Positions 8,000-64,000 of a DNA stretch of 64,000 nucleotides are shown here, piece after piece (within the stretch, counting starts at the first letter, position 1; every line of letters begins with the position of its first letter). Below the pieces are notes generated by a model. That model was not told the origin of the DNA. It saw only the letters and a program-made list of their open reading frames with translations, and did not search any database. Origin of the DNA: Deroplatys truncata (lineage: Eukaryota > Arthropoda > Insecta > Mantodea > Mantidae). Both the position numbers and the translations under genes were made by a program. The stretch spans positions 278,097,341 through 278,161,340 of the forward strand of contig CM060990.1 of NCBI GenBank assembly GCA_030765065.1, written 5' to 3'.

Positions 8000-8011
8000 G
8001 ATGGTGGTAAT

Positions 8012-23740: not shown

Positions 23741-23759
23741 GGGCGTTAGCACGCATATT

Positions 23760-24000: not shown

Positions 24001-24189
24001 TACTCAGTTTAGCGTGCCGAATTGATGTTGACTTAGCAATATAACGTTACTCCCAAACAGAGACGGGATTATGCCCGAGCCTGTCTTAACGCCCTGTATA
24101 ATAACGCTAGTAAACAGACACAAGCCTCTTACACCCGCTACGACAGGAGTGAATTATAACCAACAAACAAACATCGTCATCACCACCAT

Positions 24190-26260: not shown

Positions 26261-26269
26261 GTACTTCAG

Positions 26270-34891: not shown

Positions 34892-34929
34892 AGTAGGTAC
34901 AATAGAGGAATCCTGGCACAGTTTTTTGG

Positions 34930-35905: not shown

Positions 35906-35984
35906 TTTGAAAGCGACTTTAGACGAGAACTTCATGGAAGCTGTTATCAATGCTAGAACACAAATTCTAGACAGCTACAGCACG

Positions 35985-38620: not shown

Positions 38621-38699
38621 AGCTGTCTAGAATTTGTGTCCTAGCATTGACAACAAACAGCTTTCCATGAAGTTCTCGTCTAAAGTCGCTTTCAAATCT

Positions 38700-39725
38700 A
38701 GCACCTCCCCTGCTATTCCCTCTCTCCTGTATATAAACCCATATTGCTACTCCTTCAGTATCTGTCTAGCCTAACACTTCTCCTCCTGTTGATATACCTC
38801 TCATACATATAAACGCATAATCTACTCTCAACCACTGTCTAGTCTAGCATCTCTCTCCGTACCCCCTACCTCTCATAAGCGCATTCCCCGCCTGTCCCCA
38901 GTCTAGCTGAGTATCTCTCCTTGTTTTCCTATCTAACCTATATAAAACAGTCTACGTTTAACACCTGTCTATCCTAGCATAGGTCCTGTGTCCGTTTTCT
39001 CGTTTCTACTTATAAACACATACTCAAACTCTCCTAGCCTAATACCTCTCCTCGGTTTGCTATATCTCCCATATAAAGGTTTATTCTACCCTTCAAGCCC
39101 TGTCTAGCCTAACACCCCTCCTCCTGTTCCCTACCTCCCTCATATAAAAGACATACTCTACCCTTCAACTCTGTCTAGCCTAACACCTCTCCTCCTGTTC
39201 CTATACTTCTCATACATATAAACGCATACTCTACTCTCAACCTCTGTCTAGTCTAGCATCTCTCTCCGTATCTCCTACCTCTCATAAAGCGTATTTCTCT
39301 CCCGCCCCTGTCTAGCTGAGTATCTCTCCTTGGTTACCTATATAAAGCACATTCTACCTTTAACACCTGTCTATCCTAACATTGGACCTCTCTCCGTTTT
39401 CTCGTCTCTCCTTATAAACCCATACTAAAACTCTCCTAGCCTAATACCTCTCCTCGATTTGCTATACCTCTCATATAAACCATACTCTACTCCTCAACCT
39501 CTGTCTAGGCTATACCTCTCATATAAACCATACTCTACTCCTCAATCTCTGTCTAGCCTAACACCTCTCCACTATCTCTTCCATATAAACCTACTTCCCT
39601 CCTTCTACCCTGTCTAGCCTAGTATCGGTCGTCGTATTCCCTATCTGTCCCATATAAACCCATTTTCCTCCTTGAACCGCCGCATCTGCCCTCGTTTTCC
39701 CTACCCTTTCCCATATATGCCCAAA
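38700..39725. repeat. 60-70 bp minisatellite, right arm
   Basis: Inverted copy of 34930-35905 with the same higher-order unit order. A short local duplication of CTATACCTCTCATATAAACC at 39460-39540 is not present on the left. Confidence 0.85.
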
Positions 39726-39759
39726 AAAACTGCCAGGATTCCTCTTTGTACCTACTGGT

Positions 39760-43716: not shown

Positions 43717-44059
43717 TTTTTTTAATTTCCTTTAATAACATCCTGCTATGCTACAGTAAAGTAATACTACATGATTGATTACCTTATTACAATAGTTTAC
43801 AATTACAGTATTATATGCAATACAATTAGTAAGATAATTTCATTTCTACAATCTTATTGTTCAATTTAACAGCATTAACTTTAATAATTGCCTTATTCTA
43901 TTTGTGTTTACAATGCATCAAAGTCTACCGAATTTACGAACTCTAAAAATTCTTTGTGATACAGATATATCGTATTTGTGTTGGTGGCTGGCCATTTACC
44001 CTTCTTACGTGTGATTCCATTCCTAAGTAGCACTCTTTACGACTTCAATTTATGACATT
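43717..44059 (-). pseudogene. LINE 3' end, separated by the 17.2 kb insertion
   Basis: Minus-strand end of the LINE at 61300-64000. Past the GACATT duplication, the reading frame of that LINE resumes with HKLKS, a stop, then RVLLRNGITRKKGKWPATN and HKEFLEFVNSVDFDAL, followed by TAA near 43912. A Gly-x-Trp-Pro segment followed by F-x-F-V-N-S-x-D-F before the stop is the usual C-terminus of RNase H-bearing LINEs. A poly(A) tail appears as T9 on the plus strand at about 43713-43722. Confidence 0.85.
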
Positions 44060-44129
44060 AGTATGTATAATATGGCGACTCTGGCCCACAAACAGATGCC
44101 GACAACTGATAAGATTCTTTGTTCTATGC

Positions 44130-44520
44130 CGTCAAGCCCCGCCCCGCCCTTTGAGGGCTTAGATGCCGCCTGGTCGCGCGTGCCGCTAGCCCCGCCCCCT
44201 CCCTTTATGGGCTTACCTAATGCCGACTGGGTCTGTGTCGTCAGGTCCTACCCCTCCCCCCATGTGGTCTGGTCGCGTGCCGGTGGCACCCTCCCCTTTG
44301 TGGTCTGATTGGTTCCCTGTGGATAGGTGGGAGAGTGTGTATTGTTCCTATACGCTGGTTACATTCCCGCCCCCTCATTGTGACTTGTCTAAATCCCTCC
44401 CGTGTGATTGGTTCCCCTGCGGATATGTGGGAGAGTGTGTATTGTTCCTATACGCTGGCGACGTCACCCCGCTCTCATAGCGTCCTGTCTAAATCCCGCC
44501 CCTGGTGAGGTGTGTGGTAA
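44130..44520 (+). promoter_or_regulatory. GC-rich promoter-like block at the outer end of the left arm
   Basis: CCCCGCCCCGCCC at about 44137, two GATTGGTTCCC CCAAT-type sites (near 44306 and 44406), and a direct duplication of about 100 bases (TGGGAGAGTGTGTATTGTTCC at 44328 and 44430). A perfect TGACGTCA site lies farther in at 44919-44926, with its mirror at 60423-60430. The block is repeated in the right arm (60840-61280). It looks like a CpG-type regulatory region, but no transcript is demonstrated. Confidence 0.45.
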
Positions 44521-44699
44521 GGGAATGGTTTTCTCGATGCCTGCCACCCATCGGAAAATCGTTTGAGTACATAATTGTGTCAATCAATTAGGTAATGTTC
44601 GTCCATGCATAAAACATTATTGAAAAAAATTGGCATTTTATTACAACTAATGTCCGCACATAGCAGTTCTAAAGGGTGATGTAATGAAACGATGCTCCT

Positions 44700-44770
44700 C
44701 GATCGATGAATACAATTAAGTATTTTTTTGGTGGATTAATTGTATATGAATTGACTCGCGCGCAACTGGT
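44700..44770 (+). repeat. Hairpin repeat block 1
   Basis: ATACAATTAA (44710-44719) and TTAATTGTAT (44736-44745) form a perfect 10-bp stem with a 16-base loop, preceded by GATCGATGA and followed by ATGAATTGACTCGCGC. Related blocks are at 45220-45282 and 46841-46910, with inverted counterparts near 58590-58650, 60050-60120 and 60590-60650. Confidence 0.75.
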
Positions 44771-45595
44771 CGCCCTCGTATATGTGTGCTAGCATATGTA
44801 TAACTATCACGCTCGCGGTCTTAACCTCTCTCCGGCAACAGTCCGTCATGTAATGAAAAACCCGGCAGCCGACTTGTCTGGTAATAACCAGTTTCACCCC
44901 CCTCCGCGACTGTGTGCGTGACGTCACTAACAAGTCTCGACGTGTAGACTAGCCCGGCTCCACTCTGCCTCGGTAAATCATGTTAACGATTTGATGAGAT
45001 AATTGTGTCAATCAATTAGGTAATGCGATATTGAAAAAAGAATCAATGTTTATATACTGCTAATGTCCGGCCATCATGCCTCTAAAGGAGTGAGGTTATT
45101 AAACGCTGCTCGTCGACCAATTAAGTATTGATTGATTAATGTAATTGACTTGCGCACCTGGAGCTATCTCCCCCATTTTTCACCTACTGACATTGCACTT
45201 CTAATGAAACGACGCTCGTCGATTGATGAAAACAATTAAGTTTTTTTTGATTGATTAATTGTATATGAATTGACTCGCGCACCTGGTTGTTCTCGTATAT
45301 GGAGGTGTTAAGGTAATGATTAGGTGAATATGATTATTACATCTAATAATACATGTTTAATTCTTCTTTTGAGCGGAGGGCTTATAAAAAATATTACATT
45401 GCTTAGACGAATTAAAAAACCGACTGAAAAGGACGTTGTAAATAGCTAGAGTGAGACGTTAACACGAGAACCCTTTACGAAAAACAACACGAGTGCGACC
45501 GCTGTGCATCGTCTAATACAATGAAGCTTAAGAAACAGTTAAACCAGGAACGCTAGGGTTTTTCTCTGGTACCTGCTCTTAATGGCTTGGGGTTT

Positions 45596-45790
45596 TCACT
45601 ACATTAAACATGTTAAGAGGGTTGAAAAACGCATACTGGGTCCTGTATACCCTCATTAGCGGACAATGGCAGACGTTTCCACTACATTAAACATCTTAAG
45701 AGGCTTGAAGAATGCATACTGGGTCCTGTATACCCTCAGCAGCGTACAATGGCAGACGTTTTTTCCCTACATTAAACATCTTAATTGGTT
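45596..45790 (+). repeat. Tandem duplication, about 90 bp, left arm only
   Basis: ACTACATTAAACATGTTAAGAGG...GCATACTGGGTCCTGTATACCCTC...CAATGGCAGACGTTT occurs about 2.3 times. The right arm has no equivalent duplication, so it arose after the arms diverged. Confidence 0.8.
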
Positions 45791-46433
45791 TCCTAAGTGC
45801 TCTGAAAAACCCCGACCCTCTGGGTAAATAACTTTTAGCGATACAATAGATTTTCTTAATGATTAGCTTAATGGGTTCCTCTGTGCAGAAATTCCACCAC
45901 AAACCGTGGAAAAACCAAGCCTAGCCATGTTTTAAGCTTACAACAATTTTCCCCGATAATTAAGATAAATTCTACATGAAGATTATTAATGATTATGTTT
46001 CATAGCTCTTATTTCTTTCAATAAAATATTGAATATGACTCTAGCGTCAGGAAAAATTAAACGGAGAGAAGCGATATTTTCTTTTTACGCTGAAATTATA
46101 ATTAAACGCATAGCGTTCTCACAGGAAAAACCCTGCTCATATAGATTATAGGAATGCCGTGTGTTTAAACGTAACTATCGCATTTATTTCCAAGTATTAT
46201 ATCCTTCTCAGAGACAATCAAGTTATTATTATTATTACTATTACTATTATTATTATTATCATCATCAATTTTCGTTAAGAAAGCTTATTCCATTTAAACA
46301 GATCGACGTATCACCATTCATCTCTAACAATTTTATATGTAGAAACAATACATTATTTTCACTCTGGGATTATTTTGGTAATGTAACAATAATTAACAAT
46401 GAATTTTAGTGGTGCATCTAAAGAAATAAATAA

Positions 46434-46857
46434 GCGTCTCGCTGATCGATGAATACTAGATATGTTATTAAAAAATAAAATAAATACGGTTAACATTATA
46501 GTTAAATATTATAAATGTTATTAAAAATAAATGATTCGATTAACATTATAGGTGAATATTACATATGTTATTAAAAATAAATAAATACGGTTAACATTAT
46601 AGTTAAATATTACATACGTTATTAAAAATAAATAAGCGTCTCGCTGATCGATGAATACTACATATGTTATTAAAAAATAAAATAAATACGGTTAACATTA
46701 TAGTTAAATATTATAAATGTTATTAAAAAATAAATGATTCGGTTAACATTATACGTGCATATTACATATGTTATTAAAAATAAATAAATACGGTTAACAT
46801 TATAGTTAAATATTACATACGTTATTAAAAATAAATAATGGTCTCGCTGATCGATGA
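46434..46857 (+). repeat. Iteron-like array, left arm
   Basis: Units of about 50-57 bases: TACGGTTAACATTATAGTTAAATATTACATA.GTTATTAAAAATAAATAA. They are arranged in a higher-order unit of about 203 bases headed by GCGTCTCGCTGATCGATGAATAC (46434 and 46637). The inverted counterpart at 58620-59540 is larger. An array of this kind near each end could bind an element-encoded protein or act in replication; this is inference. Confidence 0.85.
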
Positions 46858-47721
46858 ATACAATTAAATATTTTTTAGTAATTAATTGTATATGAATTGA
46901 CTTGCGCATTTTGGTTGCTGTCGTATGTGTTCAGATGTTAAGTTGATTATTACGCGTGTATAACTATTACGACTAATAACATTTGTTTAATTCTAAATAA
47001 ATAATGAAACATGGAGCCTATCCTAAACAAGACGCATTCCTTGTTACTTTTCATTTATTCCATTTAAAAAGATTGGCTTATTCTCTTAGTAAACATAGGA
47101 CGAGAACGTTTTTAAATACCCTCCCTTCGAGAGATATTTTTTGAATATTCCAGCAGAGAGATCGAACCATATTTGTTTAAAAGCTTTTTTCTATAGATGA
47201 ATGAAATATTTGATGAATAACAGCCTTATTTAAGAGGTAAAAGGTGTTTACAGGTTGTTTTTGATAAAAATTACGTTGTGGTAACGTGCGAGGTTTGAAC
47301 AAGAGAGTTCATCGGCTCGATTCCCGGTGACTACCCTAGCCGACTTTAGAACCATTAACGATTTTTTTATAAGCGCGGGTGTAGCCTTACAAAGAAAATT
47401 ATATCAACAGAAACAATAAATTATTTTCACTCTGCGATTATTTTGGTAATGTAACAATAATTAACAATGAATTTTTTAGCGGTACATGTAAAAAAATAAA
47501 ATATATTTTTATTTTCTAGCGTCATATGCAGAAGCATTCCCCTTAAGGAGAGATGGCGTGATGTTGGATTTCCCCATAACAGGTTTAGGCTTGCTTACGA
47601 AATGCCCCTGTTCGAGCATTTCCCTCTCCTTCTACTCGAAGGTTTGGAGTAGCCAATCAAAATCGTTGTATTATATACCATCACACCTCTCATCCCCTTC
47701 AGCTTTTATCGGAGGAAATGA

Positions 47722-47755
47722 TATAAAAGCAGCAGCTTCTCCGACGATTTTCAGT
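47722..47755 (+). promoter_or_regulatory. Core promoter of the left-arm gene (TATA + initiator)
   Basis: TATAAAAG at 47722-47729 and TTTTCAGTG with CAGT at 47752-47755. The initiator A (47753) lies 31 bases after the first T of TATA, which is ideal spacing. The right-arm promoter has the same two elements at the same spacing, although the bases between them differ. Confidence 0.7.
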
Positions 47756-48825
47756 GTATTGTGAGCACACAGCGATCTAAGCACTTCGCAAACTTTATTC
47801 TTTCAACGTGAAATTTCATCGAACATCATGTCTGGTAACTTGTATCACCAATTCATTTTCATTAAAAAGTTAACTTATTACTTAGTACATTTAACTTATA
47901 TTCGCGGGCATTTATTTGTAAATAGGTGAGCATTCTAAAAGTTAATAGCTAGACAGGTGAATTTTCTGAAATGTGAACAGTTTAGTTAAGTATTAATTTT
48001 AGGCAAGCTTATTCTACATTTAATAGCTAACCGCGCGAATTCTCAAAAATATGTGAACAATTTCGTTATGTATTCATCTTGTTGAGTAAGTATTATTCCA
48101 GATATTTAAATACCGGATTTAACAGAGTGAATTATATTCCTTTTAGAGAAAATACAATTATTTAAATACCTTATTAACGTTTTTGCTTTAGAATATTACA
48201 AAAAGTCTGTTGCGCGAATCATTCGCTCTAACAAAGTAAATGTTTACATTATATTAAACCATTTAAATCGAAAAATACAGTACTTAATGAACTTCATTAG
48301 TGAATGAGAACCTCAATTATATTTACACATATTATCATTTTTTTATTATTATAGTATACAGAAAAAAAGTTAATAATTTTGTAACTTTCAAATAAATGAA
48401 ATTTTGTTATGCAACACATTCTCTAATAAAGAATGTTTTTTTTCTGTTCCTAATGCAGAAAGTTTGGCATCTCAACTTAACACATTGGCTGAGGGAGCAT
48501 TTACCCGGCCGTTCAAAGACTACAAGATCTTCAGCCAGAGGAGCCTTATAATATAAAATCCTTAAGAAAAATTGATACGAGATACGGTGCTAAAGTGGTT
48601 GCGGTTTTAGGCAATAAGCAGGTGTTTCTTCCGACAAGATATTCAACCCTAACAAGCCAACAGTTGGAGGAAATGCCAAGGAAGTTTCAAATGGTATATC
48701 ATGGAGTAGTACCATCCGGCAAGTTTAAGACATGTAAATTGTCTTTTCTTCCTGTTAAGGTTTGTAGAAATAATTCAGCTATCCTTTCAAAGCTTCATTT
48801 AGAGTTACATTCGTTGAGTTTATAA
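47753..48825 (+). CDS. Left-arm gene: two-exon small protein, frameshifted
   Basis: Exon 1 (47753-47834) holds an untranslated leader and ATG TCT G, then a GTAACT donor (47835). A strong acceptor TTTTTTTCTGTTCCTAATGCAG ends at 48458. Exon 2 opens in phase as ESLASQLNTLAEGAF, then shifts frame by one base near 48510-48530 and continues PEEPYNIKSLRKIDTRYGAK, VFLPTRYSTLTSQQLEEMP, FQMVYHGVVPSGKFK to a stop at 48825. Short proteins with an FLPxRY...YxG...F pattern are common in arthropod genomes, but I cannot name the family or its function. The frameshift suggests this copy is dead unless the base is a sequencing error. It is transcribed from an arm-encoded promoter toward the element centre. Confidence 0.6.
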
Positions 48826-48835
48826 ATTCACACTT

Positions 48836-49165
48836 CACTAGGATAACACTTGTCTAAAGTATACATCACCGTGTAAATAACGCCTAGGATGTAGTCTGGG
48901 CGAGGACCTGCAGAAAGAAGTTTAATAGTCTATTCACTGATTCTTTACCTCAAGGCAGACACCTACAGCAAGTTGCAAATAATTTCCAGTAGGATAGCAT
49001 TTGTCAAAAGCATGCATCACTGTATTAAAACAAATATGTGTAAATAATGTCTAGATGGTAGTCTGAGTGATTTCGTGCAGAAAGAAGTTTAATACCCCTT
49101 GCAATGATTCTCCACATTAAAGTATATACCCACAACAAGCTGCAAATAATGTGAATGTTTGTTAC
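48836..49165 (+). repeat. Tandem duplication downstream of the left-arm gene
   Basis: AGGATAACACTTGTCTAAAG...GCAGAAAGAAGTTTAATA...CAGCAAGTTGCAAATAAT recurs diverged about 155 bases later (AGGATAGCATTTGTCAAAAG...GCAGAAAGAAGTTTAATA...CAACAAGCTGCAAATAAT). Confidence 0.75.
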
Positions 49166-49599
49166 AGGAATGCCCAGATGAATGTAAATGAAGAGGAAGA
49201 ACGAGATAGCTTAAAACAACATAAATAGAAATGTGATAGGAACATTCTCAACACCTCCCAGTGATCTCATTCAATGAAGAATTGCAGCACAGTGCAGCGT
49301 GGAACATGCAAGGAAAAACATTCGCGTGTGTAGAATATAGCAATAATATATAAATTATGTACTCATTATTACTGCTATACCAGCCAATACCATTGATTTC
49401 ATAAATAATTTCATATTTGTTTAAAGGAGAATGCAATATCTTAAAACATTGATGCTACATGAAATCTAAACAAAAAATTATTGAACTATTACTGCAAGAG
49501 ACTTGAATAAATGGGAATCTAGAAGCCAGAACCATCTTAATATTGGACTGTGTGATATGAGGTGTATAAAAAGATTATTAAAAAAATGAGGCCTATGTA

Positions 49600-50040
49600 A
49601 TATAAACAACATTTATTTTTTATAAACATTATCCTATTACATTCCTTCACAAAAAAAACCCATACATATTTCCTAAAGACAAAGCTGATAGTTTAGACCA
49701 TCTAAACATTCAGTTATATAATCATATTCATCACAGAGGCTAACGCTCGAAGGAATTAAAAGCGAATGAATGAATTCATAACATGCAACTATGTATATAT
49801 CTCGCGTGAGCACAGCGGAGGGGGTATCTCGATCTATGAATAGCAGAGGGAAAGGATGCTCTCCTGAAACATTAGTCATCTATACAGAAATTGTTCAGAG
49901 CCGGAGACGTCAGGATGGATGGAACAGACTCCAAGTTCAAATCTTTAAACGGTAGGGGCACCCCCTTTTTGCCTGTCATGTCTCCTGAACCACCCTTACA
50001 GCTTAACATTACGTTACAATGCCACGTAACCAGATTACCG
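49600..50040 (+). repeat. Inner inverted repeat, left copy
   Basis: Pairs with 53045-53490: AACAACATTTATTTTTTATAAAC, CTCGCGTGAGCACAGCGGAG, CCGGAGACGTCAGGATGGATG and CCACCCTTACAGCTTAACATT recur inverted. It brackets the satellite core of the element. Confidence 0.88.
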
Positions 50041-51135
50041 TCGGCCAGTCACTCAGACCTTTGATTTTTTCGTGGTTTTCCCTGGTCTGTACGCGAATGC
50101 CTGAGCCCCGTATGCTACCATGTTTTCATTGTTTGTCAATCGCATCTTAACCTATGTGCTTCTAAGGCAATCTGACTGGATTACCGTCGGCCAGTCGCTC
50201 AGACCTTTGATTTTTTCGTGGTTTTCCCTGGTCTGCATGCGAATGCCGGTGCTTCTAAGGCACTCTGACTGGATTACCGTCCGCCAGTCGCTCAGACCTT
50301 TGATTTTTTCGTGGTTTACCCTGGTCTGTAGGCGAATGCCTGAGCCCCGTATGCTACCATGTTTTCATTGTATGTCAATCGCATCTTAACCTATGTGCTT
50401 CTAAGGAAATTTGACTGGATTAACGTCGGCCAGTCGCTCAGACCTTTGATTTTTTCGTGGTTTTCCCTGGTCTGCATGCGAATGCCGGTGCTTTTAAGGC
50501 ACTCTGACTGGATTACCGTCGGCCACTCGCTCAGACCTTTGATTTTTTTGTGGTTTTCCCTAGTCTGTAGGCGAATGCCTGAACCCCGTATGCTACCATG
50601 TTTTCATTGTATGTCAATCGCATCTTAACCTATGTGCTTCTAAGGCAATCTGACTGGATTACCGTCGGCCAGTCGCACAGACCTTTGATTTTTTCGTGGT
50701 TTTCCCTGGTCTGCATGCGAATGCTTGTGCTTCTAAGGCACTCTGACTGGATTACCGTCGGCCACTCGCTCAGACCTTTGATTTTTTCGTGGTTTTCCCA
50801 GGTCTGCAGGCGAATGCCTGAGCCCCGTATGCTACCATGTTTTCATTGTATGTCAAACGCATCTTAACCTATGTGCTTCTAAGGCCCTCTGTTTGGATTA
50901 CCGTCCGCCAGTCGCTCAGACCTTTGATTTTTTCGTGGTTTTCCCTGGTCTGCAGGCGAATGCCTGAGCACCGTATGCTACCACGTTTTCATTGTATGTC
51001 AATCGCATCTTAACCTATATGCTTCTAAGGCCCTCTGTTTGGATTACCGTAGACCAGTCGCTCAGACTGATTTTTTTCGTGGTTTTCCCTGGTCTGCAGG
51101 CGAATGCCTGAGCACCGTATGCTACCACGTTTTCA
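50041..51135 (+). repeat. 239-bp satellite core
   Basis: Units repeat at exactly 239 bases (ATGTTTTCATTG at 50120, 50359, 50598 and 50837), then at about 150 bases. Each unit contains two roughly 100-base halves, both with CAGACCTTTGATTTTTTCGTGG and CTCTGACTGGATTACCGTC. Each half ends TTTTCCCTGGTCTGCA[G/T]GCGAATGCC, which resembles a splice acceptor. Units differ by only a few substitutions, so amplification is recent. The 89-codon frames are shadows of the period. Confidence 0.93.
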
Positions 51136-51875
51136 CTTCATTCTATATAATTTGCATCTTTCATTTTATTCACATCTTTTTTGCTTCTAGGTTCCGTTGC
51201 GCATGGCGAATGCCTGCTCAAAAAGATACTTGTCCCTTCCTCGGTTGGCAGCCTCACGAGTTAAGCTTCCGAATCTGCGCGATTATACCCGATCAATACA
51301 TACATCTTCACAATACTTTACTTACTCTAAGCACCCGAACCTGTACGGAGACGTCCGAACACCACCGAGCAATACATTATCGTTGCAATACTTTGCTCAC
51401 TCACTCTAAGCACGCGAAGCTATACGAAGACCTATGAATACAGGAAATCACACATAAACACCGCTGACCGCCTCTAAATACTCGAACATGCAGGAAGACA
51501 TACGGTCATGTGCTAGTCAGAACCCATAATCAGATCGGAATGACAGGCTTTAATGTAGATATTTATTTACAACCATTACAAGAACACATCACATCTAAAC
51601 AATGTCTTAGACAGGAACTTTCTCTTTAAGACACGTTATGTATGCTATTCGCTTGTTTAGATTCAATGGAGATTTCAAACTTTCATCTCGGAAAAAAATT
51701 GTAGGCAATTTAGGGTGCTCTTAAAGTTAAGATAATTTTATCGAGGATTCTCTTAAAGGAACGCCTGACATGCAACATTTTACCAGATAATGGTGCTTAC
51801 AATAGCGAGTTCGCGACTTCAGATGCATGTACCCGACAATAAACTAATTTGTTCACGGTTTTTGCTTGAGAAATC
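51136..51875 (+). other. Unassigned core segment
   Basis: A pyrimidine-rich tract ends TTTTTTGCTTCTAG at about 51190 and is followed by GC-richer sequence with two imperfect repeats (CACAATACTTTACTTACTCTAAGCAC near 51308 and GCAATACTTTGCTCACTCACTC near 51384). It could be an exon of an internal gene. I cannot identify a product. Confidence 0.3.
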
Positions 51876-52102
51876 TTATTGGGCGTGAAAGACTGGTAAT
51901 TTTGCTCAGAGATCTCTATCAGGCTTGAGGTTCTTTTACGTGCCGTAAATCTACGACACGGGACCACAGGCTTTACTTCCCTTCCGAAGGAAGCCATGCT
52001 AAGGATTTTTTACGCCCGAAAATCCATCGCCTCCCCCGTCGGGCTTGAACCCGCGACCTCGGGTCTAGAGGCTAGCATGGTAACCACTACACCACGGTCG
52101 AC
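51876..52102 (-). repeat. SINE copy 5, nested in the element core
   Basis: Head and body of the five-copy SINE family: A box region near 52095-52080 and B box GGTTCAAGCCC near 52052. The AT-rich tail is missing at the 51880 end. Its position shows that the family was active after the 17.2 kb element formed. Confidence 0.82.
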
Positions 52103-52589
52103 GACACACACTTAAGGTCATTTGTGTGTAACAAACTGAGTGGAATGGCTCAGGCGGTAAGTCGGTGACTTGTATTCGGTTCAATCCCACACCCCCTCTG
52201 ATTCCCAGAGGTTTTATCTTCAAGGTTTTCCACTCACTAGACGAATGCTGTGAAGGCTCGTTCCACCTCTGAATTTTTCCTCTCATCCTTTCACCTCCAT
52301 CCTCATTTTACTTTTTTCATCTTCTTGGCTGTTTCAGGGTTGAAACTAGCGGAGAGGGACTCTCGGGCTCTCTGTAACTTTCATCCATGGAATGTGTGTG
52401 GTCCCAGAGTCCTGGACCTCTCAGAGATGTGTAAGTCTGTAGTCCTCGAGAGGAGCCATAGATTGCGTCAACTGCCGCCAGGGAATTTTTTTTATCCGTG
52501 AAAGGTAGAGGCCCTGTCCCCTACCCTTTGACTGTCACACGTCGTCGCCTTGCTTGACAACGTCGTCACACTACGCTACTACGTCGTCA

Positions 52590-52985
52590 CGCTACCTAAC
52601 AACATTCAGAAGGCCCCTGATCATCAACATTCAGGTGACAGAGACGCGGCACGAGTTGGAACGTTCCGAGATCTGGAAACGTTAGGGACATCCAGCGCAA
52701 TGCAAGCAGTACAGATCTAAACCAACCACCAAACTTTACTTTAGAAGGTAACAGATCGTTGACGTGAAGATGGTAGAAGCGTGCATCTAGCTGGAACGAG
52801 CCGATATCTGGAAACGTTAGACACATCCAGCGTAATGCAAGCTATACAGATCTAAACAGGCCGCCAAACTTTAATTCAGGAGGTAACAGTTCGTCGAAAC
52901 GTAGATGACAGAGACGCGTCACGATGTTGAACGGTCCGAGATCTGGAAACGTTAGGGACAATCCGTTGTGCGGATGACAAGTGTT
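52590..52985 (+). repeat. About 130-bp tandem repeat, three units
   Basis: GACAGAGACGCGGCACGAGTTGGAACG...CCGAGATCTGGAAACGTTAGGGACATCCAGCG...TACAGATCTAAACC recurs with GATATCTGGAAACGTTAGACACATCC (52809) and AGATCTGGAAACGTTAGGGACA (52939). Confidence 0.85.
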
Positions 52986-53044
52986 TCCAGAGAGCAACCT
53001 TTTCAACGAATGTTTCCACAGAACAGCCTTTTCCCATGCTCGCA

Positions 53045-53490
53045 CTCGCAATTTTCTGGTTACGTGGCATTGTAACGTAATGTTAAGCTGTAAGGGTGGT
53101 TCAGGAGACATAACAGGCAAAAAAGGGGGGTGCGCTACCGTTTAAAGATTTGAACTTGGAGTATGTTCCATCCATCCTGACGTCTCCGGCTCTGTGAACA
53201 ATTTCTGTCTAGATGACTTATGTTTCAGGAGAGCATCCTTTCCCTCTGCTAGGCATAGATCGAGATACCCCTCCGCTGTGCTCACGCGAGATATATACAT
53301 AGTTTGATGTTATGAATTCATTCATTCGCTTTTAATTTCTTCGAGCGTTAGCCTCTGTGATGAATATGATTATATAACTGAGTGTTTAGAAGGTCTAGAC
53401 TATCACCTTTGCCTTTAGGAAATATGTTTTTTTTTCTTGTGAAGGAATGTAATAGGATAATGTTTATAAAATAAATGTTGTTTATATTAC
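53045..53490 (-). repeat. Inner inverted repeat, right copy
   Basis: Inverted partner of 49600-50040 with scattered substitutions. Confidence 0.88.
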
Positions 53491-54366
53491 TTTTTGTAAA
53501 GTGTTATGGTTTTTTACAGGTATTCTGGTAAATTTAAAGGATTCGGTTTAATGTATAGGAAGAAGGTGAATAAGAATAATCATGTTATGATTGTAAAACC
53601 GCTGGTTTTTTTATTTTATAATTTTTTGTATTATTTGTCATGTACATCCTTAGCATCTATTTGTTGTTTTAAATGCATCCTCTGTCTGTATGTTCTAAGA
53701 CAATCTCTAGTTAGAGGTAGTAGAGGTGGTAGAACCTGAGGTGATTGCTTATACGTTAGACGCCGCCTCGCCTATCTATGGTATTGCCAGATGCGTGGTG
53801 TGGTACTACTGCATTGTGGGATGTTGGAGTTGGTAATATGGGATTGCGGGATGTCGGGGTGGTAGGTGTTAGGGGTAATTTAGCAAATATGTATGGTTTT
53901 TTTTTCTTGTGAAGGAATGTAATAGGATGATGTTTATAAAATAAATGTTGTCTACATTACTTTTTGTAAAGTGTTATGGTTTTTTACAGGTATTCAGGTA
54001 AATTTAAAGGATTCGGTTTAATGTATAGGAAGAAGGTGAATAAGAATAAACATGTTATGATTGTAAAACCGCTGGTTTTTTATTTTATAACTTTTTGTAT
54101 TATTTGTTATGTACATCCTTAGCATCTATTTGTTTTTCTAAATGCATCCTCTGTCTGTATGTTCTAAGACGATCTCTAGTTAGGGGTAGTAGAGGTGGCA
54201 GGGGTGGTAGAACCTGAGGTGATTGCTTATACGTTAGACGCCGCCTCGCCTGTCTATGGTATTGCCGGATGCGTGGTGTGGTACTACTGCATTGTGGGAT
54301 GTTGGAGTTGGTAATATGGGATTGAGGGATGTCGGGGGTGGTAGGTGTTAGGGGTAATTTAGCAAA
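53410..54366. repeat. 478-bp direct tandem duplication
   Basis: Two copies at an offset of 478 bases (GTGATTGCTTATACGTTAGACG at 53741 and 54219) with few differences. The duplicated unit includes the 3' half of the terminal exon of the right-arm gene plus its 3' flank, so a spare gene tail lies downstream of the real one. Confidence 0.88.
53506..53610 (+). pseudogene. Exon-like fragment resembling the left-arm gene's C-terminus
   Basis: After an acceptor-like GTTATGGTTTTTTACAG (ending about 53519), the plus strand reads YSGKFKGFGLMYRKKVNKNN. The left-arm gene reads SGKFKTCKLSFLPVKVCRNN at its C-terminus. SGKFK, a Leu three residues on, then KV and NN align with one gap. A second copy follows in the duplicated unit (about 53985-54070). 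It overlaps the 3' flank of the right-arm gene on the other strand. The relationship is inference from a short match. Confidence 0.4.
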
Positions 54367-54637
54367 CCCTGTTAGAGGGGTTGCTGAATTTTTAATTGCC
54401 TGAGAGGATGCAGGTGATATTGAGGATGTGGATGGGAGGATAAGCGTAAAAATGGGTCGTGGTGTTACTTCAAGCAGTCTTATTGTAGACGCTGAAGAAA
54501 GGGAGGGGGAATGAATTGAAAATGGCTGTGATGTAGGTGTGCTACTAATGGATTGATTTTCGCCTGCCGCCTCTAAGGTGATAAAGCGCGGCATGTCACA
54601 CATATCACAGGCTCCTGAAAGTATAATAATGAGAATG

Positions 54638-54674
<37 letters not shown>

Positions 54675-54946
54675 GCGTGAGAAATTGATTCTTTATACAA
54701 AAACTACTCTGCAAATAAAGTATAAAGATTGTAGTTATTGAATGGAATGATAATTATAAGTGCGAGAAATTGATTTTATATAAAAAACTTCTCTGCAAAT
54801 AAAGTATAAAGATTGTAGTACTTTCAGTTATTGAATGGAAAAAATAATGATAATGATGATAATAATACATGTGAAAAAAATTGAATTTATATTAAAACTA
54901 CTCTGCAAAAAAGTATAAAAATGGTAGTCCTTTCAGTTATTGAATC

Positions 54947-54981
<35 letters not shown>

Positions 54982-55471
54982 TAAGCGTGAGAAATTGATT
55001 TCATATAAAAACTACTCTGCAAATAAAGTATAAAGATTGTAGTTATTGAATGGAAAAATAATAATAGTATAGCATGTTTTAAAATATGCTATTATGATTT
55101 GTTACATTAATTTATATAAAACACTGAAGAATTCTTACCATTCGACTGTTGCTGCACGCATGTGGCAGGGCTCCATCCCTGATCATTTAACCCCAGGAAG
55201 GTTTGGAAGCCAGGAGGTGTCGGTGCAGCGGTCGAAGGATGACCCAATCCAAAATAAAGTCCACTTCCTGGAAATAATAATAATAATGGAAGTATAGCAT
55301 GAGTAAAACAAGCACTTCATAAAAATATTGAAGAAATTCTTACCGTTCGACTGTCGCTGCATGTAAGGATTCTGGAAGGCAAGCGTTTCAGGTGCAGTGG
55401 TCGCGAAGCCAGAGGGTGCCTGTGCAGCGGTCGAAGGATGACCCCTTCCAAAATAAAGTCCACTTCCTGGA

Positions 55472-55505
<34 letters not shown>

Positions 55506-56979
55506 GTATAGCACGTGTAAAACAAAAACTTCATAAAAAATATTTAAACATTCTTACCGCTCAGTGGTTGCTGAGTTCTTGACCCCCCTGGGAAACCGGA
55601 GGGCGCAGACGACTCGTCACTGTCTTCATCAAAATAAAGACCAAAATCTGAAAATAATAATAAACATAATAATAATGATAATAGTATAGCACGTGTAAAA
55701 CAAGAACTTCATAAAATATTGAAAAATTCTTACCGCTCAGTGGTTGCTGAGTTCTTGACGCCCCTGGGAAACCGGAGGGCGCAGACGACTCGTCACTGTC
55801 TTCATCAAAATAAAGACCAAAATCTAAAATAATAATAAAAATTATAATAATAATGATAATAGTACAGCACGTGTAAAAAAAGAACTTCATAAAATATTGA
55901 AACATTCTTATCGCTCAGTGGTTGCTGAGTTCTTGACCCCCCTGGGAAACCGGAGGGCGCAGACGACTCGTCACTGTCTTCATCAAAATAAAGACCAAAA
56001 TCTGAAAATAATAATAAAAATGATAATAAAAATAATAATAATAATGATAGTATAGCACGTGTAAAACAAGAACTTCATAAAATATTGAAAAAATTCTCAC
56101 CGATCGGCGGTTAATATTAATAATAATAATAATAATACTAATGGTAGTATAGCATTTGAAAAACAGGAACTTCATAAAATATTGAAAAATTCTTACAATT
56201 CGGCAGTTGCTGATCGCTTGACCAGGGAAAACCGGAGACGCCGGCGCATCGAAGGCGTCTTCCTAAAAATAAAGACGCCAGTAATTTACACGTTAGATTT
56301 TAGTTATTTATTTACTTAGTTTTTTAAAGAAAAGTTATATTATTAAGTTAATTTATTTTATTGCGAATAGCTTATATACAGAAATGTCCCTGTATTTAAC
56401 AATCAAGAAATTTCTATTACAAATAAAGCAGTTGTTTTATTCGACAGTCATTGGAATTATCTCTTTTAACGTGATGGAAACAGACTGAAAGTATTTACTA
56501 AATAAATGCGCGAGAGGAATGAAACATTAACTGATGAATGTTCGACCAATGCATGCAAACAGGAAGTCCACGGATCGATTACTGTCAATTACCCTCGGAA
56601 GAATATTTATACAGAAAATTTTTATTCGATTCGTAGGGTTTACAAGTAATTGTATTTTCTCTAGAAAGGAATATAATTCACTTGGTGAAAACACGTAGTT
56701 AAATATCCTCAACAAGATGAATACTTAACTAAACTGTTCACATTGTTTTTGAGAATTCGCGCAGCTAGATATTAACTGTAGAAGTTCAACTATTCGCATA
56801 TAAATGCCAGACATTGAAAACAAGAACGCAAATATAAGTTAAATGAACTGAGTAATAATTTAACTTTTAAAGTAAATGAAGTGTTTTTACAACTTACCAG
56901 ACATGATGTTCGATGAAATTTCACGTTGAAAGCGTAAAGTTTGCAGAGGTCTTAGCTCGTTGATGTTAGCTGAGAAACT
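54100..56979 (-). CDS. Right-arm gene with tandemly duplicated phase 1-1 mini-exons
   Basis: Exon 1 (56979-56898) ends ATG TCT G with donor GTAAGT. Internal exons, each bounded by TTTCAG-like acceptors and GTAAGAAT donors, are 56001-55912, 55823-55734, 55647-55558 (90 nt each), 55466-55344 (123 nt) and 55267-55139 (129 nt). The terminal exon is 54614-54100 (515 nt). All junctions are phase 1, and the frames stay open throughout. Each internal exon encodes [F/S]GLYF, then a Ser/Pro-rich part ending SGF or PGF and a Gln-rich tail, so they are duplicates. The terminal exon begins ACDMCDMPRF, is Ser/Thr/Pro-rich and ends basic (RDRLRTYRQRMHLEKQ). AATAAA follows near 54078. One donor is lost (GT to AT at 55911). 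Remnants of further exons lie at 56262-56197 and near 56100. Function unknown; possibly a disordered multivalent protein. Confidence 0.65.
54640..55075 (-). repeat. Four intronic repeats with AAT microsatellites
   Basis: GAGAAATTGATT...AAAACTACTCTGCAAATAAAGTATAAAGATTGTAGT...TTATTGAATGGAA occurs four times at roughly 100-base spacing, separated by AAT arrays. It lies within the last intron of the right-arm gene. CTTTATTTGCAG on the minus strand looks like an acceptor, but the following triplets stop in phase 1, so I do not call exons. Confidence 0.75.
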
Positions 56980-57010
56980 GTAAGAATTTCTGGTGAAACA
57001 GTCTTTTATA
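56976..57010 (-). promoter_or_regulatory. Core promoter of the right-arm gene (TATA + initiator)
   Basis: On the minus strand, TATAAAAG spans 57010-57003 and CAGT spans 56980-56977, placing the initiator A (56979) 31 bases after the first T of TATA. From there exon 1 is 82 nt, the same as in the left arm. Confidence 0.7.
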
Positions 57011-58589
57011 GTGCTCTTTTGCAATATAAAAATGTATGCGGGAAAGTTTAAGATATATAATACAACGATCTTGATTGGCTACTCCAAACCTTCGAGTAGA
57101 AGGAGAGGGAAATGCTAGCCTCGCACAGGGGCATCTCGTAAGCGAGCCTAAACCTGTTATGGGGAAATCCGACATCACGCCATCTCTCCTTAAGGGAAAT
57201 GCTTCTGCATATGACGCTAGAAAATAAAAACATATTTTATTTTTTACATGTACCGTTAAAATTCATTGTTAATTATTGTTATATTACCAAAATAATCCCA
57301 GAGTGAAAATAATGTATTGTTTCTGTTGATATAATTTTCCTTGTAAGGCTACACCCACGGTTATAAAAATCGTTAATGGGTAGACCATGTATTCGTAGAC
57401 CTCCATGCAGGTTCTAAAGGCGGCTAGGGTAGTCACCGGGAATCGAACCGCTGAACTCTCCTGTTCAAACCTCGCACGTTACCACGACGTAATTTTTTAT
57501 CAAAAACAACCTTTAAACACCTTTTTCCCATGTTAAATAAGGCTGTTATTCATCAAATATTTCATTCATCTATAAACTAGATCGTAAAAGCAGGCTAGCT
57601 TCAGAGAACAAAATCTATCAGATACATTCGATCGCTTAATTTTGAATTCAATCTCTCCCATTTTTTTTAATGCCATACTCTTCATATCACCCTCTACAAA
57701 TCATATTTATTTGTTTAGGATTCCATAAAAAATTAGTTTAATTGTCGATATCTCGCAAAAAATTATGATATATTTACACACTCGTCTGTATGCGTGGGGT
57801 TTTCCTTTAAGTACGGTGTTTTCAGAGGAAGAGAAATCATTTTAAAGCACAATAGCCTCCCTAATGAATAAATGTCCAAGATGCCTTCCTGGCGACAGCC
57901 TGTCGCCAGAGGGATTTCCAAGACCCCCCAGCCGGGTATACATTCCTCAAAGGGTATACAAACAATTTTTGCAAGTGGTGTGCACCTGAATAATTCCTCG
58001 AATTTTCTCGAAGATTTCCGGTGAATGAAAAAAAAAGCTTTTAAACAAATATGGTTCGATCTTTTTGCTGGAATATTAAAAATATATCTCTCGAAGGGAG
58101 GGTTGTTTAAAAACGTTCTCGTCCTATGTTTACTAAGAGAATAAGCCAATCTTTTTAAATGGAATAAAACTTGATTGCCTGTGAGAAGGAAATAATACTT
58201 GGAGATAATTGTAATAGTCACGAATGCTTACTGAGACAATCTATACACTACGCGTGAAAAATGCATGTTTTAAACAGAGGCCATTCCTATAATCTATATG
58301 AGCAGGGTTTTTTCCTGTAGGAACGCTATGCGTTTAATTATAATTTCAGCGTAAAAAGAAAATATCGCTTGTCTCCGTTTAATTTTTCCTGACGGGAGAG
58401 TCATATTCAATATTTTTATTAAAAGAAATAAGAGGTAGTATACTATGAAACTTAATCATTAATAATCTTCATGTAGAATTTAAATTACTTATTGGAGGAA
58501 AGAAAATGTTTTATCAGGCTTGTAATTGTCTGGTTTAGGATTTTCCTGTGTTTGCATGGGTGACCTGCGCAGAGCAATTAGGTACAATT

Positions 58590-59077
58590 AATTAATAAAC
58601 AATTATCTAATTGTATTCATCGATCAGCGAGACCATTATTTATTTTTAATAACGTATGTAATATTTAACTATAATGTTAACCGTATTTATTTTATTTTTT
58701 AATAACATATGTAGTATTCATCGATCAGCGAGACGCTTATTTATTTTTTATAACATGTAATATTCACCTATAATGTTAACCGAATCATTTATTTTTAATA
58801 ACGTATGTAATATTTAACTATAATGTTAACCGTATTTATTTATTTTTTATGACATATGTAATATTTAACTATAATGTTAACCGAATCATTTATTTTTAAT
58901 AACATAGGTAATATTCACCTATAATGTTAACTGTATTTATTTATTTTTTTAATAACATGTAGTATTCAACGATCAGCGAGACCATTACTTATTTTTAATA
59001 ACGTATGTAATATTTAACTATAATGTTAACCGAATCATTTATTTTTTTTAATAACATAGGTAATATTCACTTGCAAG
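58590..59077 (-). repeat. Iteron-like array, right arm, part 1
   Basis: Inverted counterpart of 46434-46857: GTTAACATTATAG and TTATTAAAAATAAAT units with CGCTGATCGATGAATAC spacers, about eight units. It continues at 59451-59545 beyond an insertion. Confidence 0.85.
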
Positions 59078-59450
59078 TTCAACGTATTTATTTTTTCAGA
59101 GCCACCCCCTGTGTAAATAAACCCTGGAAAAATATCTTGAAACGTGAAGTTCCTTATCGGACATTTCAAATGATTTATGCTAGCTTTCCTTGGAGTGAAC
59201 ATGGCCGCCGGCGTGCATTCGTTAAACTTCTAAAATGTCTACTTCCGGCATCTTAGTCGTTCAGCGGAAGATTCAGCTTACCGCTCTTCCGCCTAGGGGG
59301 CACGCTCTCTACCACGAGGGAGAGATGGCGGGGGGAGTGAATGCTGGCTGTCTCGCTGCACTTAAGCGACCGGACACTCGAGTGGGACGCTCCATGGAGG
59401 AAGGGTTGCGCGCGGGTTTTCAGCGAAATTATCGAGTGTTAGCGTTATTT
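59078..59450. other. GC-richer insertion inside the right iteron array
   Basis: About 370 bases absent from the left arm, with clearly different composition (CATGGCCGCCGGCG, GAGATGGCGGGGGGAGTG). The array resumes at 59451. No terminal repeats or duplication are evident, and short open frames lack recognisable motifs. Confidence 0.6.
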
Positions 59451-60839
59451 TTTAATAACATTTATAATATTTAACTATAATGTTAACCGTATTTAATTTA
59501 TTTTTTAATAACAAATGTAGTATTCATCGATCAGCGAGACCCTTATTTATTTTCTGTGTTTTTCCTCGACTGTCTCTACCTATATACATTTCTATTGAAG
59601 CTTATTTCAGGCCAAACTATAAATAGCTTAATTAAAAGAGCAACAAAGCAAATCTTTTTATTGCTTCTCTCGAGTGAAAAGGGACATAGCGGTCTTATAT
59701 TTTTTAACATCAGCTGGAGCGTACCCTGGCATACGGCGTGATGGAAACCCCAAGCCATTAAGAGCAGGTACCAGGGAAAAACCCGAGCCTTCCTGGTTTA
59801 ACCGCTTCTTAAGCTTCATTGTATTAGACGATGCACAGCGGTCGCACTCGTGTTGTTTTTCGTAAAGGGTTCTCGTGTTAACGTCTCACTTTAGCTATTT
59901 ACAACGTCCTTTTCAGTCGGTTTTTTAATTCGTCTAAGCAATGTAATATTTTTTATAAGCCCTCCGTTCAAAAGAAGAATTAAACATGTATTATTAGATG
60001 TAATAATTATATTCACCTAATCATTACCTTAACACCTCCATATACGAGAACCAGGTTCGCGAGTCAATTCATATACAATTAATCAATCAAAAAAAAACTT
60101 AATTGTTTTCATCGATCGAGGAGCGTCGTTTAATTAGAAGTGCAATGTCATTAGTAGGTGAAAAATGGGGGAGATAGCTCCAGGTGAGCAAGTCAATTAC
60201 ATTAATCAATCAATAATACTTAATTGGTCGACGAGCAGCGTTTAATAACCTCACTCCTTTAGAGGCATGATGGCCCGACATTAGCAGTATATAAACATTG
60301 ATTCTTTTTTTCAATATCGCATTACCTAATTGTTTGACACAATTATGTCATCAAATCGTTAACATGATTTACCGACGCAGACAGAGTGGAGCCGGGCTAG
60401 TCTACACATCGAGACTTGTTAGTGACGTCACGCACACAGTCGCGGAGGAGGGTGAAACTGGTTATTACCAGACAGAAGTCGGCTGCCGGGTTTTTCATTA
60501 CATGACGGACTGTTGCCGGAGAGAGGTTAAGACCGTGAGCGTGATAGTTATACATATGCTAGCACACATACGAGGGCGACCAGTTGCGCGCGAGTCAATT
60601 CATATACAATTAATCAATCAAAAAAATACCTAATTGTATTCATCGATCGAGGAGCATCGTTTCATTACATCACCCTTTAGAACTGCAATGCGCGGACATT
60701 AGTAGTAATAAAATGCCGATTCTTTTTTTCAATAATGTTTTATGCATGGAGGAACATACCTAATTGATTGACACAATTATGTACTCAAACGATTTGCCGA
60801 TGGGTGGCAGGCATCGAGAAAACCATTCCCCTACCACAC

Positions 60840-61280
60840 ACCTCACCAGGGGCGGGATTTAGACAGGACGCTATGAGAGCGGGGTGACTTCGCCAGCGTA
60901 TAGGAACAATACACACTCTCCCACATATCCGCAGGGGAACCAATCACGCGGGAGGGATTTAGACAAGTCACAATGAGGGGGCGGGAATGTAACCAGCGTA
61001 TAGGAACAATACACACTCTCCCACCTATCCACAGGGAACCAATCAGACCACAAAGGGGAGGGAGGGGGCGGGTGCCACCGGCACGCGACCAGACCACATG
61101 GGGGAGGGGTAGGACCTGACGACACAGACCCAGTCGGCATTAGGTAAGCCCATAAAGGGAGGGGCGGGGCTAGCGGCACGCGCGACCAGCCGGCATCTAA
61201 GCCATCAAAGGGAGGGGCGGGGCTAGACGGCATAGAACAAAGAATCTTATCAGTTGTCGGCATCTGTTTGTGGGCCAGAG
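60840..61280 (-). promoter_or_regulatory. GC-rich promoter-like block at the outer end of the right arm
   Basis: Inverted copy of the left GC-rich block with the same CCAAT-type sites, GC boxes (GGGAGGGGCGGGGC near 61150 and 61210) and duplicated 100-base unit. Its preservation in both arms suggests constraint or recent homogenisation. Confidence 0.45.
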
Positions 61281-61299
61281 TCGCCATATTATACCTACT

Positions 61300-64000
61300 G
61301 ACATTCATACACAAGATGTTCTATTGTCTGGTCACTAGACATGCAGGGACATAATGCAGAATGTATAAGTATAAAACGATGAAAATATGTTCGTAATTTT
61401 CCATGACCTGTTACAAATGTAGTGAAATTTGCAGTGTAGATTCACTTGCAATCTAAGATTTATTTCACTGTGGGAAAGAACGATTTAGTTATTGTAGTTA
61501 TCCCTTTGAAGTAGCTCTTCATAAACCTTCCCACTTCGATAAGCTGCGTTGTCTAATTTCCAGAAATAGTGCTGTTTTGGGAATCCTCTTGAAACAGATT
61601 TTCAATTCACTGTCTTGTGCCTGGTTTGCTAATCGGTCTGCAAGTTCAATGCCGTATTCTCCCACGTGCGCCTTGATCCAGTCAAATGCAATGGTGAGTT
61701 GTCCTGGTTGTCTGTATTTCATCCTACTCTGCTCTATTAATGACCTATGGTTATTTATGTTTTTAGGGCAGTCCTGGGTTATTTGACTATCAGTATAAAT
61801 TTCCACTGTCTTTTCTTCGTTATTTGTATCATTGAGTTCATTTAATGCATCTAAAGCTTTCAAAATTGCCATCTGTTCACCCTAATTATTAGAACATTTT
61901 GCGTCTAGTCTGAATTTCAGCTGGTGTGCAAGTGTTCCATTTATAAATATTACTATTCCTGATCATAGTCCTCTATCGTTTTTAGTACCATCGGTAAACA
62001 TGTCAAACTTGTATGATTTATTTTTATTCACTTTTTCAATTGGTGTAATGTCAAGTGGATGTGTTCATCGATCATATTGTAACATCACGGTCAAAGTTTT
62101 CCCTTCTTGTTGCACTGTATATCTCGGTAATTTCTTTCATTTTCAATGTAATCGGTGTTAGTCCTGTTAAAACGCACAGTGCTTCCGAAGATATGGTCCG
62201 GAATCCTTTTGCCATTTTGATACTAATTTATCTCTGCAGTCTTTGGTATATTAGTTGATTTCGACTTTCCAATGCTTCTATCTACACCGGTACTCCATAT
62301 GACAGACGCAGTATCGCTCCTTTGTATATTCTCCTTAAAACTTCATATCTGAGCCCCCAATCGATCTTAGCAGCTTTGGATAAATAATATATTAATTTTG
62401 TATACCCCTCTGCTACATAATGTGTTCATTGAATTTGAATTTTTTGTCAATGATTGTGCCTAAATATTTGATCTGGTGTTTTGTTCTAGACTTTTATTAT
62501 TTAGATAAATGCTAATATCTCTATTTTCTCTATTAACATCACTTTACATTTTCTTTATTAAATTGTATTTTATTATTTGTAGCCCAAACCTCAATCTTCT
62601 TTAATTCTATGTTAAGTGTAGTTCTCCGCTTCCACTGCACTTTTCCCTTCAGTTAGCAATATTACATATGCAAATCCCACAATCTTTGTATATCTTATAA
62701 ACTGAATTTTGAAAAGAGAATCATACTGTAGATTCCAGTAGATAGGGCCACAACAGGACCCTTGTGGACATCGTTTATTCACTTCTCTTTGTATCACGAA
62801 ATTGTTGATAAAACCGCAGTCCTTTATTTGAAGTAGTTAACAGTAAGATTGTACAAACTCTTTGGGCACTGGAACTGTTGTAGCGCATAAAGAATACTCG
62901 GCCACCATGCTGCATTAAAAGCTCCTTTGACACCGAGACTGACGAGGGCAATACACTTTCCTTGTTCGAGTTGTCCTTTTACGTGTTCCTTGACTGCCAT
63001 TGTACCATCCGCTGTAGTTCTGAGGGGTAAATCTATATTGATTTTTATTTAATAGATCTTTAAAATATACTAAGTGTCAATCCGGTTTATTAATAATTTT
63101 TCCAAAACTTTCCCACTTGTATTCAACAAACTTATGGATCTGTATTTGGTGACCTCTTAACTGTTATCGTTTCCAGGTTTTACAATTGAAATTATTCTTG
63201 ACCGTTTCCACTCCTTAGGAAAGCAGCCTCTTCCTGAACAGCTATTATAAATTGCATAAATGAATGATGGAAATATTTTTAGAACTCTTTACAAAATCTG
63301 CCTAGCTATTCCATCTTCACCGGTAGCTTTTGTGTGATCTATGCTTCCCAAAACTTCTTTAATTTCAAGTTGCGTAAAATGTTTATCGTCAGATGTGTAT
63401 ATAGGGTCTTTGGAGAGCTTCCTAATATAATGATATTGAGTGTCTTTTTCCTCATTATCTGCTGGTGTAAAGTGTACTAACTCAAACTGAGTGTGCCTTC
63501 TGTTCCTGTTGTATATGAGTCATCATTTTCTTTAGTTTTGAAATTGTGGCGACTTTTTTCTTGTTGGATGCAATTTTATACACATCGTTACACGGATTAT
63601 TTGATTGAGAGACACGGCAGTATTACTTCCAAGATTTCGCTTTCTCCCTCCGAATTGTAGTTTGGTATAAACTTTTACCTTGTAAGTTTTGTTCTTTACG
63701 GACTTCTCTGAATACATTTTCTATCGCTTTTTGGTATCTTCTCCTCATGGCACTGTCTCTCTTCCTCAAGTTCCTGAGCCCACCAAGGTACAGATTTATA
63801 TCTTCCTTTTTCCCTGTTGATCTTGAGACTTTGAAGGATTTAGTGCATGCTTCAGTCAATGCCTGTTGATACTTCTTCGCAATAATTTCTGTTTTCGTCA
63901 GTTAGCTATTGTACTTAATTTACGGTCTAATGCATTTCAATATTTTTCGCAACTGCTTATGCCGAAACACGCGGTGATGCCCCTGGCAAGGTTTGCATAA
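61300..64000 (-). pseudogene. RNase H-bearing LINE (R1/LOA/I-like), ORF2 relic
   Basis: Minus-strand non-LTR retrotransposon, truncated by the window. In order: a region between endonuclease and RT (AMRRRYQKAIENVFREV near 63740); RT blocks WKRSRIISIVKPGND (near 63210), YRSISLLNTSGKVLEKLLIN (near 63130-63080) and VSLGVKGAFNAAWWPSIL (near 62950-62900), where catalytic Asp of motif A is Gly; CPQGSCCGPIYWNLQYDSLF (62765-62705); and FAYVILLTEG in place of the FADD box. RNase H shows EIYTDSQ (about 61800) and DWIKAHVGEYGIELADRLA (61685-61630). The C-terminal segment HLVYEC (61319-61302) is cut by the 17.2 kb element. Many frameshifts and stops; dead copy. Confidence 0.88.

Follow-up and report, generated by a model that had tools for sequence, protein, structure and literature searches.

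The 17.24-kb element at positions 44060-61299 of the 64,000-nucleotide Deroplatys truncata window analyzed here (C16:278097341-278161340) is, in our reading, a non-autonomous derivative of a resident Maverick/Polinton, which would have formed by copy-back during protein-primed replication and then been integrated in trans. We put the probability of this reading at about 0.78, with the route itself inferred. That the element is a non-autonomous Maverick is close to certain in our judgment, and copy-back as the route is somewhat favored. The assembly comprises 4.29 Gb in 818 contigs, of which C16, with 707 Mb the largest encountered, makes up 16.5%.

An earlier reading of the window made from its letters alone (the sequence-only reading) had proposed a search of the assembly with the outer ~300 bases, and this returned other copies with the same ends and their own 6-bp duplications. 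Our search with the outer 301 bases scored 40 of 2,983 candidate places, covering part of the family, and the scored places form 29 clusters, among them a tandem array and ten pairs of plus/minus ends separated by 3.8-21.6 kb. The 6-bp flanks are identical in nine of ten end-to-end copies, including the 476.5-Mb copy, whose duplication was located beside an eroded left end; in the 415-Mb copy five of six bases agree. Ten further single ends were read for end type only and enter none of the duplication counts. The termini are AGTA...TACT in the window copy and AGTAGG or AGTAGT in several others. At C16:287.70-287.72 Mb (L027-L028), the element and a ~240-bp spacer with complementary ends form a tandem array with a period of ~11.5 kb.

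Four copies, at C16:251.6, 415.06, 476.5 and 482.5 Mb, are ~19-20 kb each and carry long frames, several of them interrupted. Of ten frames compared with Pfam, one came from the 484.5-Mb copy and the other nine belong to the copies at 251.6 and 476.5 Mb. Frames of the latter two copies matched DJR capsid (E = 1e-108), DNA_pol_B_2 (E = 2e-20), rve (E = 5e-10), Pox_A32 ATPase (E = 1e-6) and PLA2-like (E = 3e-13) domains, and three of the ten had no match. Using tblastn with seven Maverick proteins, we found relatives of all seven, including capsid, ATPase, integrase and pPolB, in 4/4 coding copies and none in 6/6 other fetched copies (C3:57.36 and C16:264.9, 276.7, 287.7, 482.0 and 484.5 Mb). 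Judged by this gene content, the four coding copies are Mavericks. Their capsid protein had no relative in an IMG/VR scan and none in the PDB.

The terminal repeats of the coding copies span 0.55-1.0 kb (949 columns at 95.8% identity at 251.6 Mb, 555 columns at 476.5 Mb, ~1 kb at 82% at 415 Mb and broken blocks at 482.5 Mb), two of them being more diverged. Both window arms share only ~945 bp with the left end of the 251.6-Mb copy (92.6% and 94.8%), whereas their similarity to its right end extends over several kb. On its left side, the window element thus holds ~3 kb of sequence found at the right end in coding Mavericks. Positions 55054-61299 match the region upstream of pPolB (weakly, AAT-rich) and then the Maverick right end. 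Beyond the normal terminal repeat, both window arms thus appear to come from the same (right) end, as read from an unrooted comparison. The surviving relics keep the order of a Maverick, namely capsid-side left region, integrase tail, pPolB upstream region and right end; the element therefore has a Maverick layout from which the capsid-to-integrase body and pPolB were lost and in which right-end sequence stands on the left end. Its parts, in window coordinates, are:

44054-44059, no strand: target-site duplication GACATT, left copy, from the sequence and empty sites
44060-44986, plus strand: left terminal inverted repeat, also present at either end of the coding Maverick at 251.6 Mb (AGTATGTATAATATGGCG...), 92.6% identical to L010 285-1230
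44990-48173, plus strand: left-arm extension of Maverick right-end sequence, without a match in the stretches inward of the left terminal repeats of the four coding Mavericks
48174-49150, plus strand: core stretch with a broken frame of 132 amino acids (aa), common to the palindromic and 264.9-Mb copies and not found in coding Mavericks
49152-49669, plus strand: remnant of Maverick left-region sequence adjoining the capsid gene, main block 49309-49669 at 62-63% identity
49597-50034, plus strand: inner inverted repeat, mate of 53055-53490, 93.7% identity
50033-51135, no strand: tandem array of a 239-bp unit and shorter units, from repeat analysis
51874-52094, no strand: dispersed repeat in the core, also present four times in window 830-7999
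52636-52955, no strand: short tandem array, homologous to longer mid-element arrays of the 276.7- and 484.5-Mb copies
53055-53490, minus strand: inner inverted repeat, mate of 49597-50034, left over from the second palindrome half
53491-53636, plus strand: integrase relic, from the 3' end of the Maverick gene and its flank, 71-73% identity, second copy at 53961-54106
55054-56112, minus strand: AAT-rich region that lies upstream of pPolB in coding Mavericks, 60-70% identity, partly simple repeat, a weak match
56272-59741, minus strand: inner right arm, clustering at 56634-57296 with coding-Maverick right ends and apart from the left arm
59742-61299, minus strand: outer right arm, 95.3% identical to 44060-45598
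61300-61305, no strand: target-site duplication GACATT, right copy, from the sequence and empty sites

The relic block 49309-49669 matches 4/4 coding Mavericks at their left side (best E = 2e-25) and 49152-49280 matches one copy only, while the integrase tail at 53491-53636 (best E = 5e-18) was found in the three coding copies whose piece was compared. The outer arms (44060-45598 and 59742-61299) are 95.3% identical over 1,566 columns, or 1.54 kb. Inward of them, insertions break the homology into blocks of ~75-94% (56-95% when taken per 500 bases), the innermost of which stops at 48173 on the left and 56634 on the right. The inverted repeats of more than 4 kb claimed in the sequence-only reading thus stand as broken homology reaching ~4.1 kb and fall as a continuous match, which is limited to 1.54 kb. 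Its satellite core was borne out, the tandem repeats at 50033-51135 and 52636-52955 being real. A dispersed repeat of ~230 bp, possibly a short interspersed nuclear element (SINE), occurs at 830-1088, 2887-3174, 7362-7641, 7770-7999 and 51874-52094, its copies being 80-93% alike.

A Pfam scan of 97 of the 137 stop-to-stop frames of at least 45 aa in the element gave nothing credible (best E = 0.004); the other 40, many of them 50-94 aa long and overlapping others or repeating the tandem array, were omitted by choice. With the resident Maverick capsid, ATPase, integrase and pPolB proteins as tblastn queries, no match below E = 0.4 was found in 44060-61299. The reported lack of polymerase, integrase and capsid frames thus holds, and only DNA relics remain, namely the 146-bp integrase tail, present twice, and the capsid-adjacent piece. 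The proposal of a giant non-autonomous element is supported. The accompanying doubt about a Polinton/Maverick identity is not, since the Maverick gene set is present in four copies that have these ends and 6-bp duplications, and the window relics lie in order. The alternative proposal of virus-derived cargo applies only in so far as Mavericks are virus-like; the core consists of tandem repeats, a dispersed repeat and the 132-aa frame of untraced origin.

GACATT at 44054-44059 and 61300-61305 directly adjoins the AGTA...TACT ends, and the 17,240 bp between the duplications, in agreement with the size first given, begin with AGTATGTATAATATGGCG and end in its near-complement. The minus-strand frame of the interrupted long interspersed nuclear element (LINE) resumes across the joined flanks once one GACATT is removed, and 5/5 fetched copies of related LINEs (L046-L050) run continuously through the junction with the duplicated bases present once (77-84% identity). 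The element boundaries are therefore shown, not inferred, as the earlier reading had held from the flanks and the LINE frame; the LINE empty sites are the stronger boundary proof. Two nested insertions were ruled out by the single duplication pair and the five empty sites. Misassembly as the origin of the inverted repeat is unlikely because the arms differ by ~5% and the same ends occur with their own clean 6-bp duplications at many other loci, a judgment made from the assembly.

Several relatives of the window element are palindromic. At C16:276.7 Mb the palindrome arms align over 7,176 columns with 95.4% identity; the 9.8-kb copy at C3:57.36 Mb consists almost entirely of arms (blocks of 92-98%, with gaps), and the 4.1-kb copy at C16:482.0 Mb has arm blocks of 86-98%. 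In a fourth copy, at C16:484.5 Mb, a Mutator insertion interrupts the arm blocks (92-97%); the Mutator-type transposase there (L019 5076-6659, Pfam E = 2e-53) marks a later insertion. Matching 6-bp flanks were found on all four palindromic copies, so each palindrome was inserted as a unit. In a tree of the 47437-48173 region, the arms of each of the three included palindromes are sisters (SH-aLRT 95, 97 and 99); of the window arms, the left one joins the 264.9-Mb and palindromic copies and the right one the coding Mavericks (both clades 100). In a tree of 44990-45598, by comparison, both window arms fall with the right end of the 251.6-Mb copy (support 93). Given the opposite placement of its arms, the window copy looks like a mosaic of a palindromic-lineage inner left arm and a coding-lineage inner right arm, with the outer 1.5 kb made alike again. 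We had considered the left arm a pure copy-back of the right end and dropped this because the capsid-adjacent relic at 49152-49669, which follows it, is left-end sequence; the window copy is therefore read as a right end copied over a left end, plus mosaicism.

A second palindromic element lies at 34892-39756 of the window. It is 4,865 bp long, begins with AGTAGGTACAATA, is 88.9% identical to its own reverse complement from end to end and has the flanks GGTATC and GGTAAT, which agree at 4/6 bases. Both arms hold a fragment of the Maverick ATPase gene (DNA E = 1e-6 to 7e-6 against 4/4 coding copies), detected as protein in one arm (E = 7e-5), and beyond this fragment no match was found to the family loci compared at that point. 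Since it is otherwise unlike these loci, palindromes seem to have formed in at least two Maverick lineages. Older inverted repeats of 67-79% identity are present at 1-11074 and 18160-26581, with centers at ~5.5 and 22.4 kb and opposed pPolB fragments; their ends were not found.

The 132-aa frame occupies 48434-48822 of the window, where it is broken (readable piece 48493-48822). Four other non-autonomous copies contain it at six places in total, two of these copies having it in both arms. It was not found in the compared pieces of the four coding copies. A genome-wide search gave 7,096 first-look candidates, and we scored 150, the best-matching part; all 150 are at least 92% identical and 14 have a stop. 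Among scored neighbors up to 25 kb apart, 34/37 pairs are convergent, three are on the same strand (in one local cluster) and none is divergent. The 34 convergent pairs are distributed over 12 contigs, and this orientation implies that inverted doubling is common in the palindromic lineage. Five scored copies at C16:648.25-648.30 Mb, four of them on the same strand, are spaced in steps of ~9.2 kb or double that, suggesting tandem amplification. A PDB sequence search, Pfam, and Foldseek with a model gave nothing below E = 0.1 for the frame or its window piece, the Foldseek query being a single-sequence AlphaFold model of low confidence (mean pLDDT 59). Differences among seven copies were too few for a ratio of nonsynonymous to synonymous rates (dN/dS). 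In a nine-copy comparison the frame was 96.9% identical and the stretch upstream of it 95.6%, with 14, 10 and 16 variable sites at the three codon positions, and we do not take the slightly higher identity of the frame as proof of selection.

The replication mode of Mavericks is deduced from their genes. During protein-primed strand-displacement replication, a displaced or incomplete strand would fold back and be copied, giving a molecule with the same end and origin twice. Such products would keep two working ends, with both origins and integrase sites, so that coding copies could supply, in trans, pPolB for their replication and integrase for their insertion. Mavericks are described as encoding a protein-primed polymerase, and their repeated end motifs as fitting jumping-back initiation (PMC8097293).

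A number of observations weigh against this origin or limit it. No replication intermediate was seen, and the change may have run the other way, with long left terminal repeats having been lost from coding Mavericks. Short pieces (up to ~165 bp) of the first 312 bases of 44990-48173 recur within some left terminal repeats, and the comparison of ends includes the eroded 476.5-Mb left end, with its repeat of only 555 columns, and the broken 482.5-Mb repeat. None of the coding copies found accounts for the stretch 48174-49150 with its 132-aa frame. The sister arms could also be explained by gene conversion after insertion, and in the other two arm-region trees sister pairs are only partly resolved (276.7 Mb unresolved in both, C3 in one). 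Among the copies, that at C16:264.9 Mb is asymmetric, with a 0.94-kb terminal repeat and one inner block; the 415-Mb duplication is imperfect; and the C16:287.7-Mb tandem array has no target duplication and so stands outside the ten copies. At C12:103.62 Mb, arms 97.6% identical for 2.4 kb are bordered on the outer left by unrelated DNA, and neither of the two fetched pieces showed an element end.

The long arms might instead have formed in the chromosome after insertion, by inverted duplication, gene conversion or template switching in repair. Ongoing chromosomal conversion would also produce the within-element sister arms of the one tree, and the window does contain further inverted structures; however, in all four palindromic copies the target duplications are outermost, which indicates that the palindrome entered as a unit, and the convergent frame pairs on 12 contigs also speak against it. 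We therefore consider this origin unlikely. Slightly less probable still is that long right-type ends on both sides were ancestral and that coding Mavericks secondarily replaced their left ends. The polarity has no outgroup root and long arms are frequent among the copies examined, but a complete palindrome cannot precede a gene-bearing element, and the terminal repeats of intact vertebrate Mavericks measure 46-1,447 bp (mean 402; PMC8097293). An unrelated giant transposon or independent virus-derived element, Polinton-like at its ends only, would suit the lack of a Maverick gene frame in the window copy and of a credible Pfam, PDB or fold match for the 132-aa frame, but was rejected, and is very improbable, given ~945-bp termini 93-95% alike with those of a gene-bearing Maverick and the ordered internal relics.

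Copy-back of one end has parallels among other protein-primed replicons. The end-duplication defectives of adenovirus and the hairpin or inverted-dimer derivatives of the yeast linear plasmid pGKL1 are copy-back genomes of such replicons; they likewise use one end twice and form a palindrome or hairpin by protein-primed replication, but they are free genomes, whereas the products proposed here are chromosomally integrated. A literature search on adenovirus end duplications, panhandle defectives and pGKL1 hairpin derivatives found no usable paper. Foldback (FB) transposons resemble the element in their very long inverted ends with repeated subunits, but the ends described here are those of a Maverick family with genes and a 6-bp duplication. 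Tm1 is listed as a Mutator/Foldback family. We found no description of palindromic Polintons in the literature searched, with subscription papers and Repbase Reports outside the search. The N in Polinton-1N1_DR marks a non-autonomous Repbase entry. As this name appears in PMC9341505, gene-less Polinton-ended elements seem to have been named already in zebrafish, a comparison by name only. Intact vertebrate Mavericks are described as 12.7-24.6 kb long with 6-bp duplications, AGT-type ends and the motif (AGT)2 (PMC8097293). The family described here is similar in duplication, end type, terminal inverted repeats and size, and in the gene set of four relatives. The window copy differs in its lack of genes, its repeat of 1.5 kb continuous or ~4.1 kb broken, its tandem-repeat core and its 132-aa frame, and some of its relatives differ in being palindromic.

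Among the scored hits, C16 holds 22/29 end clusters (p = 3e-12) and 53/110 clusters of the 132-aa frame (p = 1e-14), as against 3/11 for LINEs (p = 0.4), a small control with places merged by hand. Only the best-scoring candidates were counted, and the C16 excess of Maverick ends and frame is therefore a lead. C16 may be a sex chromosome or a refuge.

More speculatively, and with rather low confidence, palindromic Mavericks may be self-renewing hairpin replicons, a satellite lineage that parasitizes the pPolB and integrase of Mavericks, rebuilds either arm on the template of its partner in each cycle and carries its own small gene twice, perhaps in thousands of copies accumulating on one chromosome. 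If the palindromic lineage does amplify itself, it would act as satellite to a virus-like transposon, resembling defective viral genomes except for its chromosomal inheritance, and it may form a sizeable part of the 4.3-Gb genome. Integrated copy-back products, if truly such, would constitute a heritable record of replication, whose breakpoints, arm identities and mosaicism could be read from assemblies.

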